64,000 nucleotides of DNA from positions 2,501,991-2,565,990 of the forward strand of contig JAEVLN010000012.1 in NCBI GenBank assembly GCA_018350325.1. Reading direction: 5' to 3'. The position numbers and the translations under genes were made by a program. Below are positions 16,877-46,200 of this stretch, piece after piece. The stretch's first letter is position 1. The number at the start of each line of letters is the position of its first letter. The stretch comes from Globodera rostochiensis (lineage: Eukaryota; Nematoda; Chromadorea; Rhabditida; Heteroderidae). The notes below the pieces were generated by a model. The model was given only the letters and a program-made list of their open reading frames with translations, did not search any database and was not told the DNA's origin.

Positions 16877-18995
<2,119 letters not shown>

Positions 18996-19126
18996 ATTGT
19001 TTTTGATCCTCTTTCTTTAAATAAATTCTAAAAAACGTTGACAAAGCATAAAAACATATGTAAAATTATGCGACTAAACGCAGTCAGTCAAAATAAACAA
19101 CAACAAAAAATGAAGCTCCCGTTTAT

Positions 19127-22100
19127 TTACATCGATCGAAATTCACCGAAAAAGGACAAAAATTGATCATCGTTCAAAAAATCGCGTACTCTCTGCATTT
19201 TGAGCAATCTAGCAAATAGCGCTAGCAAATTGTTTTTCCTCTTCCCCTTGAAGAATTTGGGACTTTCAAACACTTTGAGCGCAATGTAATGGAGCCAGAA
19301 CACATTTGTCCGCGGCGTAAACTTTGACCAATCATTGCTAAACTCCAAAAGATTTAACTATAAAAAAGCAAAGAAAGAACGACTTATTTTCCTCTCGCAT
19401 CATCCGATAAATATCAAATTGGTAATCGCCAGTCTGATTAAAAAGATTCTCATCCGCAGAAAGATCCACGTACACAGTGGCATCATCTTAAAAATATAAA
19501 CGAAATATGATTAATCATTTAAACTTACTTTTTTTCATACGAGAGAGCGAAAAATCGATGATTGATACTTTTACGCCATGGGAAATAAGCTCGACTGGCT
19601 CGCACTCGTAAGCATAACTAAATAAGTGCAACCGAAAATCATTCAAACAACAAGAAATGGCCGTGTGTGCAGCAGAACTAACCATATTTTTGTTGTTTTT
19701 GGGCAATTGGCAATGAGAATGTTTCCGACGTGCAAATCACGGTGCTCGAATTCAAGTGCCTCTTCAGCAATTGCAAGGGACAAAGCAAGTTGATAAAAAA
19801 TCGAAAAAGATTCACGATCAGTTCGAATCTTAAAATACTTATGAAAGGTTGATTAAAAGATATCAGACTTTGTAGGCTTCTAGATCTTTTCCGCCGTCCG
19901 AAAGCCCAATGGTGACAAAATGTTGTTGTTCGTCGGCATAGCGGTCAGGCCTTTCATTTTCTGCCAGATGAGGTTTGTTCCTCCCGAATCTATCCCACGC
20001 CTTCAATAACTCGTCGGGATATTCACCTAAATGCCGAACATAAACCAGTGCAAATATAAAAGAACTACTTTTTGCATAAATGGGCTTAGTCTGACCTCTA
20101 ACGATGGTGTTCTGGACCAAGTTCACGAAAGATGACGTGACAAATCCACGAAGACTTGTAGACTCCTCATCGGAGAGCTTCGAAAGCTCTTTGGTTATAA
20201 GAAGCTCATTGTAGTTTAATTTAGGTGATTTAAGGTAATCGCCATTAACCATCTTCGCACACTGCTCGGCATTGATGGCAAAGGGAATCACCTAAAAACT
20301 TGACGTTAAAAATGCAAAAAAAAACAACCTTCAACGCCACGTGCACACCATTCATCAGGATCTTAAACACTTCGCCATACGTTCCCTCGCCAAGTTTGGA
20401 ACAGTGCTTCAGTGAACTAAATGATTTATCTCATTCAACTCGGAAATTTTCTCAAAAGAGCTCGACTTAACATGCATTTTCCCCTCTTTTTTTCCCTAGG
20501 CCCAATGGCTCAGTATTGATTATACTAACCAAGATGTACGCTGAAATTCCTCCCAAGACCAAGCAGTATCCTGTCCACAGAGGCTGAGAAAAGTCTTTAA
20601 ATCTGAAAGTGACATTGTGCTCAGGAACAAATGAGTAATCGTTTACCATCTGAATTAATTTTGTCCTCGTGTAGTTCCTCCAACTCTCTTGCGAAACCGC
20701 TAATGTTCTGAATGCTGACTACATCCGACCAATTGTTTTCCACATCAGACTGATCAACCTCAAAACAAGCAAGCAGATGAAAGGAGATGGGGGGGGGGAT
20801 CATCAACCCACATGTTTTAACGTTGTCCCCTGCTTGATCTGCTCCATCATAGTGTCCCGCATAGTTGGAGGATTTGTCGGCACGGGTGCTCTGTCTGCCG
20901 ACGGTGAGCCCACCTTCTTCAACTTTGTGCCCTGCTGAATTTGATGCAGCAGATTAGCACGGCCATCCCCCCATTGAGGCAGCTTCGAGTCTGAGCTGGT
21001 TGACGCCAACGCAGTGTCGGCCATGGATGGCTTTGATTGAGGGGGAGGCGGCGGTGGCGGTGGCGGAGAGGGCGGCGGTGGTGGGAGTAAGACCGTACTT
21101 TCTGCTGACACCGCTGGACTATTCTGAATTTGTTTTTATGAATAAAAAGTTCAAGTCAAGTTAGGGGCGCTAGAATTGCAAAGAATTATAAGCAAACTTT
21201 AATTTTAAAAACCTTTTGCTGATGAATGACCGTCGGAGGCGTTGGGGTTGGCGGCGGTTTTCCCCGATTGTTCGACGTCATCGTTGACTGGGGACGTTGT
21301 TGTACACCACCGCCCAATGACGCACCCAAAACACGTTGTGGAGGAGGCGGTACAGTCAAAAATTCGCCCATGGAATGTAAGGCCCTGTTGTTAACCGGTG
21401 GCGGTCTTGGGGGTGGTTGATGTCGAATTGTCGTCGTTGGGGTAGAGGGGGCCAAAAACTGAGTGATTTGCGAGTTGGACGCGCTAATCGATCGGTGATA
21501 GCTGCTGCTCCCGAAGGGTTCAATCGGCAGTGCGTATTTGTCCTTGTTTTCCGCAAAGAATTTGAGCGCATGATTGAGCTCATCTTGGTCCATTTTAGCG
21601 GGTTCTTTGTCTATCGAATGACACATTTTTATAAAATCTTCTAAACTCGAAGTTTCATTTAGTGTAAAATCTGTCAATTAGCATTACCATCTAACGCATC
21701 ACAGCCATTGGTGGGCAGCGTATTTCCTTCCCACCCAACATGCGATTGCGATCTGAATTCGCCCGTGGAATGTAAGACACTGTTGTCAACCGATGGCGAT
21801 TTTGTAGACGGTTGCTGTTGATGAGACGTTGATGGGGTCGAGGTAGCCAAAAACTGTGTGATTTGTGGGCTGGTCGCGCTAATCGAATGTTGATGGCTGC
21901 TGGTTCCAAGGCTTTTGTTATGCTGTTTTAAGTTTAAACCATTATGTAGTAAAATGTAAATTGTCACTTTCATTTCTTAAAACAATAAAAAACTTTTGTG
22001 CACTGTCGTAGCCAGGGGAAAGGAAACTGCCGCAAATTCTCCCCCCAAAACGAAAAAATTGGAGTTTTTACACAATTGTGGGCGGCACATCTCGGACAGC

Positions 22101-22805
22101 CAAAAAACCACCACCCACAACTTTTTAATGGCTAAAGACAATAATAGCATACCGTATCCTTCCAGAAAGATTCTTCCACCTTCCAAGAGGTTTCTTCCAA
22201 TCTGGGTTCCTAAAGAATGTAAAATAAAATTAACAATAATCGGATTTCTCTCACTTCGATAATTGAGTTTGTCCTATTAATCTTCTTCGAAGGGATTGTG
22301 TATCGCTCTTTCGGGACCATTTCGACTTGGAATTCGAAGTCTTCAACTTCGCCAAACTAAATCTCCGATTTAAAAAAGGAATACAATGGAAAGGGTCGTA
22401 GCCACGAGGGCCAAGTGGCAACGGCCCTGAACAAAAGAATAACTAACAACAGTGTTCAGCTTCTGCACTTGCTCCGAAAGGTTTACTTTGCGTTGCTCTT
22501 TTGGCTTCCCTACCCCTCTCGCACGCCTTTTGCGTTGATTTTTAATCGGTTCATTGAGTTTTGAAGTGAGATCGAGTAATTTGCTTCTTCTTGGCGTGTT
22601 ATTGATAATTAATTGATCGGACAGATTATCGTTGTAGGTCAACGCTTTCTGTAAATCAAATTCATGCAAACTAAGCAGCATAATTAATTATTACCTGGAT
22701 TTTGTCGTCGTTGTATTCGATACTTTTTCCATGATGAAGTATTTCGGGTCTTCTGACAGTCGGCCCATGAAAACGACTAACACGACCTCTTTTGGGACTG
22801 CTCAT
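19127..22805 (-). CDS. hasp-1: Haspin-family kinase fused to a WASP-derived proline-rich/WH2 region
   Basis: The C-terminal half is a haspin kinase, the family that phosphorylates histone H3 Thr3 in mitosis. Seen: P-loop [12 protein letters not shown] (about 20365-20400), lysine in [26 protein letters not shown], catalytic [12 protein letters not shown] (19715-19750), and IIDFSLSRM (haspin's variant of DFG), then [20 protein letters not shown] and the C-terminal [11 protein letters not shown]. The N-terminal half is read from eleven exons: 22695-22805, 22448-22648, 22255-22356, 22153-22209, 21688-21922, 21213-21640, 20812-21123, 20647-20758, 20530-20602, 20472-20495, 20329-20416. All junctions keep frame. 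The first four give a basic unrecognised N-terminus ([14 protein letters not shown]); the next four are WASP-like: a half CRIB (HVGWEGN), polyproline, two WH2 motifs ([28 protein letters not shown]) and a diverged central region, without the acidic tail. Exons 9-10 link to the kinase. Transcript support is needed; separate genes remain possible. Confidence 0.78.
20647..21922 (-). repeat. Inverted paralogous copy of the WASP 3' half (parent at about 44820-46110, plus strand)
   Basis: Exons and introns of this block match the plus-strand WASP gene closely. The intron after the second WH2 (20759-20811) differs from its plus-strand partner (45924-45979) by very few bases, and the intron upstream of the polyproline exon is also alike (gcccctaacttgacttgaac in both). 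Differences: one fewer exon join after SMGEF, a shorter polyproline run, a diverged central region, and the acidic tail absent. An additional diverged copy of the Ser/Pro-rich module precedes the block (about 21765-21922). It reads as a recent segmental duplication in inverse orientation, possibly kept alike by gene conversion. Confidence 0.85.
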
Positions 22806-23482
22806 TTTTAACATTTAACCAATCTTAAAGGGTTCATTCACATTTATCAACACAAAAAAAACGCTCATGAAAACTAAATAAAGATCGTCCATGAAAAGAG
22901 ACTTGGATTAAATAAAAATTGATAAAAATCTGTAGCTGTAATTATTGAAATTTGAATAATCGGGGAATAAATAATCGTTTTTATTTCCTTTGCTTCGGAA
23001 AAATCCTGGTAACAAAAAACTGCGAAAAGGAAAAAATATTACATTTTTAGTCCGGTTTTCACAACACTTTCTTGTCCCTTTATTTGAAAGTTTAATTTGA
23101 ATTTGACTGCAAATCTATTAACAAGGACACGATTTTATTAATCCCCCCGCCTCTAAAAATTTTTCTGGCAACGCCCTCCGGTCCTCTTTCTTATGAATAT
23201 AAATTTTTAACAAAATCTACTCAAAATTAGTCCGACTTTTTGAGCTTAAAATTCCATTTTTTAATCCTAATATTTTTTGACCGCCTACCCGCTAAAAAGA
23301 AAAAATGAATAAACATTGAATTATATAAACGATTTGTCTTGTACATTACAGGTTATCTGTTATTATCCGGGCCCAGGAATTTTACAGTTATGCACAATTC
23401 TCATTTGAATAAAACAATCATTTGCGTTCGAATCACAACAACGAGGAATCCAATTGAACGGTACTTTTTCGTCATCAATGTT
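22806..23482. other. AT-rich gap between UBXN4 3' end and the haspin-type gene
   Basis: About 680 bases between two minus-strand genes. It contains a piece (23140-23190) with a C-run, tctaaaaatttttctgg and caacgccctcc, resembling the dispersed element seen at 11880 and 33907. No gene is seen. Confidence 0.55.
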
Positions 23483-26975: not shown

Positions 26976-29676
<2,701 letters not shown>

Positions 29677-30224: not shown

Positions 30225-33200
30225 TTAGAAGCCTTCGTCCCAGCCACTAAAAGAAAAGTCATTTCATAGATTTCTTCAGTTACTGATTTGGCCACCTGAA
30301 CTCATCGGGCGGAATGTCCTGATCGGGTGGGTAATTGTCAAAGTTGGACACGTCAGCCGGGTTGCTCACTTTCTGACAGGAAAAACAAAGGACGGGTGGT
30401 GGACGGTTCCAAGCTTCGAACTCACCGGAATGATAGGCGGTTTCAACGTTCGTGACCGAAGTCCGTCCCAGTCAAAACCCATAAACCACCTTTCAATTTC
30501 AAAATTATAAACTTGAAATTGTCTCAATACCGTTTACCGGTGTTTTCGAATGTCATTTACACCGCCCGAGCCGGAACCGAGTCGTTCTCCGGGATTGTCA
30601 CGGCACAACTTCTTCACTAAAGCTGTCGCTGTTTTACCAATACGTCGGTTTGGGATCTCCAGAACATCAATACCCTGCAAAGAAAATTTTATTTGAAAGG
30701 ATTTGACCATTCTCTCACCTTAAGTATCAATGTGTACGTCTTCATGGGATCCGATGCCTGGAAGGGGGGCCTGCCCAGCATCAGTTCACATATGTAGATG
30801 CCGAGTGCCCAGTAATCCGCCGCCTGGTCGTGGCCCTTGTTGAGGATGATCTCCGGTGACACGTATTCGGGCGTTCCGCAAAATGTCCACGTCTTCCGCC
30901 CCGACGCCAACTTTTTTGCGAATCCAAAGTCAACCAGCTTCAAGTATCCGCTCGTGGTCAGCAGACAGTTTTCCGGCTTTAGGTCCCGGTAGACGATGTT
31001 CCGCCTGTGCAAATGCTCTAACCCCTCCAGAACGCAAGCCACATAAAAGCGAGCCGTGTAGTCGTCGAAGTGCCCCCTATCGCGCAGTGTTGTCCATAGC
31101 TCACCGCCAAGACAAGCCTCCAACAGCATGTACACTGTAAATGAAAAAAAAAATTAAGCTTAAGTTTTGGAAGTTTTTTGGCAACGTCCAGCCCATCCAG
31201 TACTCCCCCTCCCCTTTAATTACCATATTTGGAATCCCGGAATGTTTTGTAGAGGCGTACAATCCAATCCGTCCGAGTCTCCAACATTATGTTACGTTCT
31301 GCGAAAATGTGCTCCTTAATTTTAAAGGATCAGCGAATTGTTCACTGCCCAAAACGTAAATCACAATTTTAACACGGATTTATCACTTAAGTACTTGTTG
31401 CCGGGTGTCCACAACGTGTTTCTTTTTTAGAGCCTTCAGAGCGAAACTGCGACTTTTATCGGCGTTGATGCAAACCTTTGGAGAAAATTGTTTTTTTTCA
31501 CAAAACCCACGGTTTTCTCACCAGTTCCACCCTCCCAAATCCGCCGACGCCCAATGTTGCGATGCGCTTCAATTGACGGAGCTGAATTTGCGCGAATTCG
31601 TCCTCCAGTTCCGGTATTTCCGTCTTTATCGGCGATACGCGCGCGTCCTTCTCGGTACGCGCGCTTCGCCGTTTTATGTCCTCGTCGCGGTAGGCACGTT
31701 GCTGCTTCAGCAGCGGTTCCAAGTCGCCGATAAGCTTCAGAAAGCTTTCCCGGTCGAGGGTCAGCACCTCCACGCCCGGAGCCAAGGCGATGACGTTGGC
31801 AGTACGTACCTCCTCCCCTGGCGAAAAATGCAATCAATTCAGTTACACTCTGATAATGAGCATTTGAGACTACGAAACGGATACAAAAAGAAAGCATCTA
31901 CAAACACCATGTTTTTAACGTATCCATCGTACCAAGCAGCGCTTTCTCGCCGAAGAATTCGCCCTGCTTCAAGACACGGACTTCGCGCGGCTCCAACTCC
32001 CCCTCGATGGACTGAGTGACGCGCACTTGACCGCTGTTGATAACAAAGAAAGTGTCGCCCTTCTCGCCCTCCCGAATGATGTAATGATCAGCAGCGTAAT
32101 AATCCTGGTCCATCACGTCAGCCATCTTCGACAGCCGATCCTCAGGCAGTCCGACGAAGATCTCCACCTTGTGCAGGAAGTTCATCAACTGCGCATGCCG
32201 TTCCATGCCCAACCGCATTGTGATCTATGAAGTTGTGTTGGAATTATCAGAATAGGCAAAATGTAAATTGCTTTCAACCATTTGGAACACAGATCGGTCC
32301 AGACAGAAGAGCACACAGTCGGTGATGGCCTGGATGGATGCTGTTCTGAAGAAGAATGATAAGGATAAGAACATTTCGGACGTGGGGGGGGGGGAAGGAT
32401 AATTCGCCACTCAAAATGTTCAGTCATCCCTTACCGTTCACAGTTGTAAAGAATCGCCAGCTCTCCCATCGCAACGCCAGGGTTCATCACCTGCAAATAT
32501 GACGAGATGCATCCACCCCAAAAACACTTTCAGTTTATCCCGTACCCCCAGAGATTGGCCCTCTCGGGACACTTGCAATTGGCCCTCGGCGATTACGTAG
32601 AGCCGATCGCCCGGCTCACCCTCCTGGATCACCCATTGGCCGGCGCGCGCACGCATTTCGAACATACATTCGACTAACTGATCAGGGATTTATAGATAAA
32701 GATTAACAAATCGGCAAAAAGCTTCCCGAACGTACCTCGATGATCTGCTCTTTGGCCAACTGTCGTAGAAAATCGTTCTTTTGGACCGCGTCTCGGATGA
32801 GCTGCTTGCAACTGAAATTTAAATTTTGTTCGATTAAGTGGATGTGTTGCAGTTCCAAGACCCGGCCGATTTGGAGTGATGCTGCAACGTCGCCTTGTGC
32901 TGGTCCAACTTCGTCGGCTCAGCGGACACCGCCATTTTCTTAGCACGCACTTCGGGAACGACTTGCCCAACTTCTGGTAACAACGCAGCCTTCTGACGAA
33001 AAACGGATTGCCACACAAATTACAGCTCCAATGCCCCAAGGACAAACCCAGAAAAAAAATTCGGGGGGGGGGGGGGGGGGGGGGAAGAAAACCCTGGGTA
33101 CGCCACATTGTCCACAACCTGCTTCATCTCCGTGTGCAAGTCATCTGACCGTTTCTGACCGCCCAAAGTGGCGGCACTTTCTGCCTTTAAATTTGAAGTT

Positions 33201-37430: not shown

Positions 37431-37903
37431 CTTTTCGGCATGTCCCCAACCCCAACCCTTCCCGTCTACGGCATGTACCCAACCCCAACCCTTCCCGTCT
37501 TCGGCATGTCCCCAACCCTCCCCATCTACGGCATGTACCCAACCCCAACCCTCCCCGTCTTCGGCATGTCCCCAACCCTCCCCATCTACGGCATGTACCC
37601 AACCCCAACCTTCCCCGTCTTCGGCATGTCCCCAACCCTCCCCATCTACGGCATGTACCCAACCCCAACCCTCCCCGTCTTCGGCATGTCCCAACCCTCC
37701 CCTTTTCGGCATGTCCCCAACCCTCCCCGTCTTCGGCATGTCCCCAACCCCAACCCTTCCCGTCTTCGGCATGTCCCAACCCTCCCCGTTTTCGGCATGT
37801 CCCCAACCCTCCCCGTCTTCGGCATGTCCCCAACCCCAACCCTTCCCGTCTTCGGCATGTCCCAACCCTCCCCGTTTTCGGCATGTCCCCAACCCCAACC
37901 ATC
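37431..37903. repeat. Compound tandem repeat of 33- and 27-base units
   Basis: Units such as cccaaccccaaccc + ttcccgtcttcggcatgtc (33 bases) alternate with shorter 27-base units ending atctacggcatgta, giving a 60-base higher-order period at 37500-37680, then becoming irregular. Both unit sizes are multiples of three, so all frames stay open over long stretches. The array lies just beyond an in-frame stop (37905) of a possible upstream exon and just upstream of the tentative first exon of the cGMP kinase. I do not call the resulting frames genes. Confidence 0.9.
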
Positions 37904-37904
37904 C

Positions 37905-38175
37905 CTACCCCGTGCCGCCCTCCTTTTGGCGTCCGGCCGAATGGCTTTGCCCGCTGTTCTGCACATGCAGTTGTGAGGAGGAGGACATGGACTCGTTTTG
38001 TTCCTGTGCTGTGCTGACCGCGAGTTTGCCAATTTTCACCGCCGCCACTTCGTCCTGAGGAGGAAAAAGGTGTCATTTATTTGGCCAAAACGCAATTAAA
38101 ATCAATCAATTAACTCGCCTCGAGGGAGTTGTGAAGACGTTTGGCAGCCAACTTGGTCAATCGGTTGGGAGACCC
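37905..38175 (-). other. Two unassigned exon-like segments
   Basis: Minus-strand open pieces at about 38117-38175 (NRLTKLAAKRLHNSLE) and 37905-38056 (DEVAAVKIGKLAVSTAQEQN, then a Ser/Gln-rich tail). The second starts after a good acceptor (tttttcctcctcag) and ends either at a stop (37905) or at a donor (gtaggg) a few bases before it. They could be the C-terminal exons of CCM2 in an alternative isoform, or upstream exons of the cGMP kinase. I cannot choose between these. Confidence 0.35.
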
Positions 38176-43867: not shown

Positions 43868-46200
43868 ATGAGTGCACCCGTGTCCAGAAATCGTAACTCC
43901 AACTCAATTTCAAACGGCGGCGCTAAAAAGAAGGACCAGCGCCCGGTTCAGAAGGGCTCGACATTGCTCAGTGCCGAGGAGAATTTGCAACTTTTCGAAG
44001 TCTTGGGCTTGGACAGAATATCTTTGGCCGCCGGCGTCGCCCAACTGCTCTCTGCCTATCCGGAACGACCAAACATTTGGCGCAAAGTTAACGTTGGGGT
44101 GGCCTATCTGATGAAGGATTACCGGCAAAAATGCTACCAGCTGTGCTTGTACGATTTCTTCAAGAAGGAGTTGCAATGGTGCCAAATTTTGTGAGTTTGT
44201 TTATTTTTAGGCATTTTTTGGACTTTATTCAAAGTTTTTCATTTTTAGGTACAAAAACTTCGCTGCGAATTATTATCCTAACAGCCCTCGTTTCATCTCA
44301 TTTGAGAGTGACTCTTGCGTAAATGCATTGAACTTCTCAGATTTTAAAGAGGCAGAAACATTTAAAGCGGCGCTGGAAAAGTGGAGGGTGTCTAAAAACA
44401 AGAAGAAAAGTATGTTATGAAAGGTTCTAATAATTTAATGTGTTAATTAGGTAACCAGACAAGACGTGGGTCTGCCGGAACGACCGTTTTGCCAAGCCAA
44501 CATAATCCTCCGCCATATACAAGCCAAATTAACGCTTCACCAGTTATCATTACAACGCCACATCACCTAAATGGCGTTCATTGTCAACCCAACCACCACC
44601 ACCAACAGCAGCAACATCCCGTCGGCATCACTAGTATGGGTGCCATGCCGCATTTTGTGGACAAAAGCCTCCATCTGTCCGCTGCAAAAACAACAAAAAA
44701 GAGCGGAAAAGCTGGTAAAAAGCGGAGGGAGCGAGTCATCACCAAGGAGGACATCGGGATACCTTTAAACTTTGTGTATGACTGTCCCTCTTTTGTCCTA
44801 AAATTTGTCTAACTTTAGGCACAAAGCGCATGTTGGGTGGGAAGGAAATACGCTGTCCACTAATGGCTGTGATGTGTTAGATGGTAATGCTAATTGACAG
44901 ATTTTACACTGAAACGTCGAGTTTAGAAGAATTTGTAAAAGTGTGTAAGTCGATAGACAAGGAACCCGCCAAAATGGACCGAGATGAGCTCAATCATGCG
45001 CTCAAATTCTTTGCGGAAAACAAGGACAAATACGCACTGCCTATTGAACCCCTCGGGAGCAGCAGCTATCAACGATCGATTAGCGCGTCCAACTCGCAAA
45101 TCACTCAGTTTTTGGCCCCCTCTACCCCAACGACGACAATTCGACATCAACCACCCCCAAGACCGCCACCGGTTAACAACAGGGCCTTACATTCCATGGG
45201 CGAATTCAAAACGCGACAACAGGTAATATTACATTCGGGAAGGTCCTGAAATATTGAATTGGAAATTTTGTTGAATAATAAACATTTTTACAAAGCCAAT
45301 AATGGCGCATCAACCGGTCGCTGCGGCACATGCAATTGTATTGCCGGCGCCACATTCCATTGTCCCGCCTCCTCCACAACGTGTTTTGGGTGCGTCATTG
45401 GGCGCTGGTGTACAACAACGTCCCCAGTCAACGATGACGTCGAACAATCGGGGAAAACCGCCGCCACCCCCAACGCCTCCGACGGTCATTCATCAGCAAA
45501 AGGTTTTTTAAATACGATTTATTAAAGTTTGCTTATAATTCTTTGCAATTCTAGCGCCCCTAACTTGACTTGAACTTTTATTCGTAAAAACAAATTCAGA
45601 ATAGTCCAGCGGTGTCAGCAGAAAGTACGGCCTTACTCCCACCACCGCCGCCACCTCCGCCACCCCCTCCGCCACCGCCGCCGCCGCCTCCCCCTCAATC
45701 AAAGCCATCCATGGCCGACACTGCGTTGGCGTCAACCAGCTCAGACTCGAAGCTGCCTCAAGGGGGGGATGGCCGTGCTAATCTGCTGCATCAAATTCAG
45801 CAGGGCACAAAGTTGAAGAAGGTGGGCTCACCGTCGGCAGACAGAGCACCCGTGCCGACAAATCCTCCAACTATGCGGGACACTATGATGGAGCAGATCA
45901 AGCAGGGGACAACGTTAAAACATGTGGGTTGATGATCCCCCCCCCCCATCTCCTTTCATCTGATTGCTTGTTTTGAGGTTGACCAAGCCGAAGTGGAAAA
46001 CAATCGGCGGTCTGGCGGAGGCGGCATTCAGGACATTGGCGGTCTTGCAGGAGCGTTGGCGAGGGCGTTGGAGGAACGGCGCAGGAACATAGTTAATTCA
46101 GGTAGACTTTGGGCTAGAATTTGGCATAACACAATTTTCAGATTCTTCCGACTCTGACAGCGAGACGAATAATGATGAATGGGATGACGACCAAGAGTGA
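43868..46200 (+). CDS. wsp-1: WASP/N-WASP actin-nucleation-promoting factor
   Basis: WASP activates the Arp2/3 complex downstream of CDC42. The start at 43868 gives MSAPVSRNRNSNS. The WH1/EVH1 domain follows (LLSAEENLQLFEVLGL, then AYLMKDYRQKCYQLCLYDFF, SPRFISFESDSC), then a basic linker (KKSGKAGKKRRERV) and the CRIB motif ITKEDIGIPLNFV joined to HKAHVGWEGN (about 44740-44850). A 43-base intron (44883-44925) leads to the rest of the GTPase-binding region. A long proline-rich part follows, with about 19 prolines in a row near 45645-45695. Two WH2 motifs ([28 protein letters not shown]), a central helix (IQDIGGLAGALARALEERRR) and an acidic tail (NNDEWDDDQE, stop at 46200) complete the VVCA module. 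All expected domains are present. Its 3' half is duplicated in the haspin-type gene at 20.6-21.9 kb. Confidence 0.96.

Follow-up and report, generated by a model that had tools for sequence, protein, structure and literature searches.

The closest described systems to the gene reported here are the haspin kinases and the WASP proteins. Human haspin (GSG2; structures 2VUW and 3DLZ) has the kinase domain and the catalytic residues in common with it, but the gene reported here differs by its WASP-derived actin-binding motifs in the N-terminal part and at two hinge positions. Its kinase is also like the nematode haspins hasp-1 and hasp-2 of C. elegans, for neither of which does the available text of PMC9277076 mention an actin-binding part. 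The same text describes more than eight predicted C. elegans proteins with some haspin homology, in contrast to the single locus found here, and presents hasp-2 as almost the kinase domain alone, its loss bringing no obvious phenotype (PMC9277076). According to the portions available of two further papers, haspin acts on actin and spindle orientation in human cells via ARHGAP11A, ROCK, LIMK1 and cofilin (PMC10570125), and in yeast it influences polarity and how actin is distributed (PMC7308332); in both, its loss alters actin and spindle position through longer pathways. The one open-licence paper that pairs haspin with Globodera is a population scan of the soybean cyst nematode, in which a haspin gene is found in a table, as far as the available text of that study goes.

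For the other family, the available text of PMC3298513 gives one WASP in C. elegans and in every other nematode then analysed. The polyproline region and the two WH2 motifs of WASP/WSP-1 and N-WASP are also present in the chimera together with a remnant of the C helix, and the corresponding DNA is a copy of the nematode's own WASP gene, whereas WH1 is absent, PBD is undetected, the C helix is decayed and a kinase replaces the acidic tail. In the open-licence literature, haspin was never paired with a WH2 domain or with Wiskott-Aldrich, and among the matches listed there for the broader themes of haspin, WASP and fusion no such protein was found. Taken singly, neither the haspin kinase nor the WASP donor is unusual; with respect to that literature, it is their combination that is new.

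A predicted fusion of a WASP-derived segment with a haspin kinase

The DNA that was analysed is a single stretch of 64 kb (the window, numbered from its first letter). The chimera lies on the minus strand, and the parent WASP gene is located about 21 kb away on the opposite strand of the same window. The features are as follows.

22814-22695, 22648-22487, 22356-22255 and 22209-22153, minus strand: exons 1-4, basic N-terminal part, GT-AG introns, each exon length divisible by 3
21973-21975, minus strand: alternative start (ATG from 21973, first exon base 21975) with the acceptor ttgttttaag/AA ATG, a candidate SL trans-splice site
21748-21922, minus strand: first part of exon 5, a diverged extra copy of WASP exon 5, 77.8% identity over 167 bp, ungapped, open frame
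21688-21747, minus strand: second part of exon 5, a copy of WASP exon 4 with the half CRIB HVGWEGN, the other CRIB half being absent
21213-21640, minus strand: exon 6, proline-rich, WASP exon 5 and part of exon 6 by alignment to the parent WASP
20812-21123, minus strand: exon 7, polyproline and two WH2 motifs (six-frame WH2 matches at 20911-20970 and 20809-20871)
20647-20758, minus strand: exon 8, decayed WASP central helix, 76% identity, gaps of one and four residues
20603-20646, minus strand: junction intron of 44 nt between the WASP part and haspin, with good splice-site scores
19127-20602, minus strand: exons 9-16, complete haspin kinase (Pfam PF12330, 2e-56; human haspin 2VUW, 2.1e-62)
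43868-46200, plus strand: intact parent WASP, 9 exons, 627 aa, in the order WH1, PBD, proline-rich region, WH2, WH2, C, acidic tail (Pfam, spliced)
44824-46059, plus strand: duplication arm B, the donor segment, from self-comparison of the window
20680-21747: duplication arm A, the inverted copy of 44824-46059, from the same self-comparison

The minus-strand model runs from 22814 to 19127 in 16 exons, and its product is 863 aa from the ATG at 22814 or 860 aa from that at 22805. Each of the 15 introns has GT-AG ends and no stop codon interrupts the frame; the first-pass annotation had stated as much for the exons up to the P-loop. Its eleven exons from the start codon to the P-loop should be ten, one '2' in its list of phases being surplus. 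When the spliced 16-exon product was searched against Pfam, the match to Haspin_kinase (E 2e-56) lay in one frame with two WH2 motifs (1.7e-11). In exon 6, the pieces of WASP exons 5 and 6 are fused in frame via the loss of about 45207-45360 of WASP. The intron sizes of the chimera and WASP genes are 37-230 nt, and the junction intron is within this range.

Around these genes, a methionine aminopeptidase 2-like gene, recognised by eye only, lies directly downstream of haspin (17390-19000, minus strand). Parts of a DEAD-box helicase (27940-28329, plus strand, 6.4e-18) and of an ordinary protein kinase (30692-31153, minus strand, Pfam 3.7e-46) were also observed. Upstream of exon 1, 23137-23247 has three partial matches of 74-83% on contigs C6, C45 and C9 and is probably a dispersed repeat, and self-comparison showed tandem-repeat-like blocks at 1-376 and 37434-37905.

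The kinase scores 192 bits with PF12330 against a curated cut-off of 25, and in the Protein Data Bank it matches human haspin 2VUW at 2.1e-62 with 120 of 278 aligned residues identical. The catalytic Lys, the alpha-C Glu, the HRD Asp and the metal-binding Asp are kept as K563, E592, D712 and D751, respectively. We take their counterparts in human haspin to be K511, E535, D649 and D687. The acidic residues of human haspin that bind histone H3 are presumably D611, E613, D707 and D709, and three of these four positions are kept while that of D709 is Asn. One other label, M667, does not fit the chain, and the residue list is therefore not wholly dependable. The stretches [19 protein letters not shown] and IIDFSLSR named in the first-pass annotation are present, in line with its complete haspin kinase, and on the sequence features examined the assignment to haspin holds. 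Every haspin match in the 92.6-Mb assembly, three of three by Pfam and seven of seven by protein, fell within the chimera locus; no second haspin was found among the best candidates of the six-frame search, which a very diverged copy could escape.

The WASP part retains some features of its parent and lacks others. The half CRIB, the polyproline, the two WH2 motifs and the shortened central helix of the earlier description all align to the intact WASP gene in the window. At the protein level the WH2-WH2 segment does not differ from that of the parent, and it can be aligned with the WH2 pair of N-WASP in the solved structure 3M3N; binding of actin monomers is therefore expected. The central helix is homologous to that of WASP, at the identity and with the gaps given above. 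Pfam gave no match to WH1 in the chimera at E 0.1 (1.2e-13 in the spliced parent), and the CRIB/PBD region, reduced to a half motif, gave none at E 0.1 either (1.7e-5 in the spliced parent). The acidic tail is gone, as had been stated: the parent ends with NNDEWDDDQE, while the chimera runs on into haspin. With WH1, a PBD match and the acidic tail all absent, the predicted product fails as a member of the WASP family of Arp2/3 activators. Because it has no WH1, only half of the CRIB, a C helix that is partly lost and no acidic tail, it should neither activate Arp2/3 nor be controlled by Cdc42. The proposed WASP-haspin fusion and its expected loss of Arp2/3 activation are thus both supported at the level of sequence; the earlier reading had left out the parent WASP gene, the mosaic divergence, the splice forms that are free of WH2 and the doubt about the N-terminal exons.

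Inverted duplication and divergence of the two copies

WASP exons 4-8 are copied and inverted in front of haspin. When the DNA of the copied part was searched against the whole assembly, with simple repeats skipped, the six matches were the part itself, two in WASP and three on contig 9, the latter being 44-46 nt each within the proline-coding stretch. The WASP protein gave 19 matches, eight in WASP, five in the chimera and six elsewhere, the last with E above 9e-4 and all within residues 402-599. Pfam found no WH1 across the unspliced genome, which is uninformative because spliced WASP has one. An intact parent is present and the DNA homology spans introns, and the segment is, by all appearances, a copy of exons 4-8 of the neighbouring WASP gene. 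In D. yakuba, chimeric genes reportedly arose through partial duplication and exon shuffling. A partial local duplication captured by splicing is common to those genes and this one, but here the copy is inverted and apparently underwent later gene conversion with its parent. The chimera contains WASP exon 5 in two copies, which form an internal direct repeat (21361-21512 and 21756-21907, 78% identity, start-to-start spacing 395), and this doubling suggests more than one round of copying.

Comparison of the chimera copy with WASP revealed a mosaic. The core is 93-99% identical including its introns, and the edges are 76-78% identical. With the junction at 21360-21347 left out of the counts, the core has 25 differences in 970 columns, exon 8 has 26 in 109 and the extra exon-5 copy has 37 in 167. 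In order, the core comprises the exon-4 part (4/60), an intron (1/43), exon 5 (11/280), the exon-6 part (2/134), an intron (2/88), exon 7 (4/312) and an intron (1/53). A run of identical columns as long as the longest one observed, 199 of 1079, arose in 0.14% of 20,000 shuffles, and no shuffle gave a block as well conserved as the best one. The dS values were 0.057 and 0.026 in the core and 0.34 and 0.46 at the edges. Core introns differ in 4 of 184 columns and core exons in 21 of 786; recent homogenisation predicts this pattern, in which introns are as similar as exons. Selection alone for a near-identical core is ruled out by the equal similarity of the introns. The simplest reading seems to be that the duplication is old and that gene conversion, presumably with WASP as the donor, has rewritten its core in recent times; a second, later copying would look alike. 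The comparison is between two copies within one species.

Because a single assembly is the source, an assembly artefact or a pseudogene has to be considered. However, substitutions, indels private to one copy and unique flanks tell the two copies apart, as would not be expected of a duplicated contig, and an assembly duplication is therefore unlikely; moreover, the kinase has intact residues and the assembly yielded no further haspin. We regard the artefact or pseudogene as very improbable.

Whether the WASP segment is maintained as protein was considered from its divergence. The dN/dS values of 0.55-0.81 indicate little constraint. In the aligned segments, all four coding gaps are multiples of 3 compared with one of four intronic gaps, which favours translation of the WASP segment, although the numbers are small and one coding gap, at the exon-8 donor, depends on the model. 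The open frames of the edges are weak evidence, because they also stayed open in 16-38% of neutral simulations. The fusion may be without function, that is, an insertion which is tolerated in front of an ordinary haspin kinase and whose WASP segment stays open mainly through conversion. The dN/dS values and the decayed C helix fit such a passenger, conversion by itself could hold the core open, neutral runs often leave the edges open, and the nearly kinase-only hasp-2 of C. elegans shows no obvious loss phenotype in the available text (PMC9277076). Against it, all coding gaps keep the frame, the WH2 pair is intact and, at the diverged edge, the splice sites have good scores. Taken as a whole, this explanation is possible, falling a little short of an even balance. 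For the N-terminus itself, a passenger is about as likely as a working part, because of the dN/dS values and the share of neutral runs that stay open.

As the preferred course of events, we suggest that an inverted duplicate of WASP exons 4-8 came to lie ahead of haspin and that splicing through a phase-1 intron captured it. The resulting protein order would be half CRIB, polyproline, WH2, WH2, decayed C helix and haspin kinase. After that, gene conversion by WASP or another round of copying would have held the WH2 core nearly identical to the parental sequence while the edges drifted. The two arms, 20680-21747 and 44824-46059, are inverted with a near-identical core; if they recombined, the 23-kb interval could become inverted, with WASP and the chimera exchanging their ends.

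Transcript structure and the N-terminus

The WASP-to-haspin splice junction scores well. Within the gene, using a leave-one-out matrix, the donor of the junction intron is at the 85th percentile of 187 GT and the acceptor at the 94th percentile of 211 AG. None of seven polyadenylation-like hexamers that we scanned occurs between 21202 and 20431, a range covering exons 7-9 and the junction. The nearest are ATTAAA at 21203 and GATAAA at 20430, both intronic, and the sole AATAAA within 22900-19000 overlaps the haspin stop (19129-19127). We consider it likely that the WASP part and haspin form one chimeric gene with a single predicted transcript. This reading is weakened by two features, an acceptor at 20649 and an in-frame skip of exon 7. 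The AG inside exon 8, after which the first base is 20649, has an acceptor score of 8.91, and the WH2 motifs would be removed in frame by several skips, among them those of exon 7 alone, of exons 6-8 and of exons 5-7, while skipping exons 5-8 together is out of frame.

The same acceptor in exon 8 bears on a model of two partly overlapping transcription units, in which a short haspin would begin at ATG 20615 and the truncated WASP copy, either with exons 1-4 or without them, would form the other unit. A possible start for haspin by itself ([12 protein letters not shown] 20615; MSLSDLKTF) lies in frame within the junction intron ahead of the kinase, exon 8 hits a stop when it is read into the intron, and the exon-8 acceptor is only 34 nt ahead of ATG 20615. 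In addition, the assembly contains 131 SL1 sequences with up to one mismatch versus 0 for the reversed control, which marks its source as a nematode and makes trans-splicing credible. However, the two parts are just 44 nt apart with no scanned polyadenylation-like hexamer nearby, and a transcript from 20649 meets an out-of-frame ATG ahead of ATG 20615. The AG nearest ATG 20615 scores 1.95 versus 9.42 for the cis acceptor with the same matrix, and trans-splicing at the cis acceptor leaves no ATG ahead of the P-loop. We judge two transcription units to be unlikely.

The basic N-terminus of the first-pass annotation, exons 1-4, is compatible in frame, but its link to exon 5 is doubtful. The acceptor of exon 5 (21922), with a leave-one-out score of -0.64 at the 55th percentile, is the weakest link of that model. 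The acceptor ahead of 21975 scores 9.41, the best in 22170-21900, versus 2.43 for the 21922 acceptor with the same matrix, and the ATG at 21973 is in frame and gives a 733-aa WASP-haspin product. Pfam on exons 1-4 gave no match up to E 1. Codon usage, trained on 1726 codons (WASP exons 1-6, the kinase exons and 7 of 29 open stretches picked by eye), placed exons 1-4 at the 63rd percentile of the null, but it has no power here, the homologue-bearing exons 5-10 reaching only the 55th-93rd. The support for exons 1-4 is splice consensus alone, and they are perhaps the N-terminus of the haspin gene or a separate small upstream gene.

If they are a separate gene, the arrangement would be operon-like, the WASP-haspin gene would start at ATG 21973 and the fusion would be unaffected. 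The top-scoring acceptor right before this ATG, the weak cis acceptor at 21922 and the stop at 22134-22132 that exons 1-4 reach past the exon-4 donor, with ATTAAA at 22129, are consistent with this arrangement. On the other hand, the phases of exons 1-4 all fit exon 5, and ATTAAA-type hexamers are common in the stretch. We consider a separate gene nearly an even call, and the N-terminus as annotated in the first pass stands at about an even chance; the 733-aa protein from 21973 is at least as likely as the model with exons 1-4.

Predicted function of the chimera

If it is made, the chimera would bind G-actin or profilin-actin, without Arp2/3 activation or a response to Cdc42; we infer such actin binding as the probable outcome. 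The N-terminus could hold the catalytically intact kinase near actin-rich sites, or could make it sensitive to G-actin. The reports on haspin and actin in human and yeast cells make an actin-tethered haspin plausible. As a whole, we hold it probable that the locus is a chimeric gene with an actin-tethered haspin as its most likely mode of action. A functional coupling of actin and kinase, which the first-pass annotation had suggested through H3 Thr3 phosphorylation or spindle polarity, is a more tentative step, below an even chance. In its strongest form, the sole haspin found would be an actin-binding kinase whose WH2-WH2 part, refreshed by conversion from WASP, couples its chromosome-directed activity to the state of actin or to the cortex, and we regard this as rather unlikely.

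The locus clearly exemplifies a chimeric gene with its parent only 21 kb off, and conversion between the inverted copies appears to have partly rewritten it. If the transcript is real, two normally separate cell machineries, actin binding and haspin, which places marks on chromosomes in dividing cells, would be physically joined in one protein. A natural fusion of haspin with an actin-binding part would be direct evidence that both functions can join, and would offer a simple object for testing this. On the strongest reading, the link from haspin to actin and polarity, which is indirect in yeast and human cells, would be hard-wired in this nematode.
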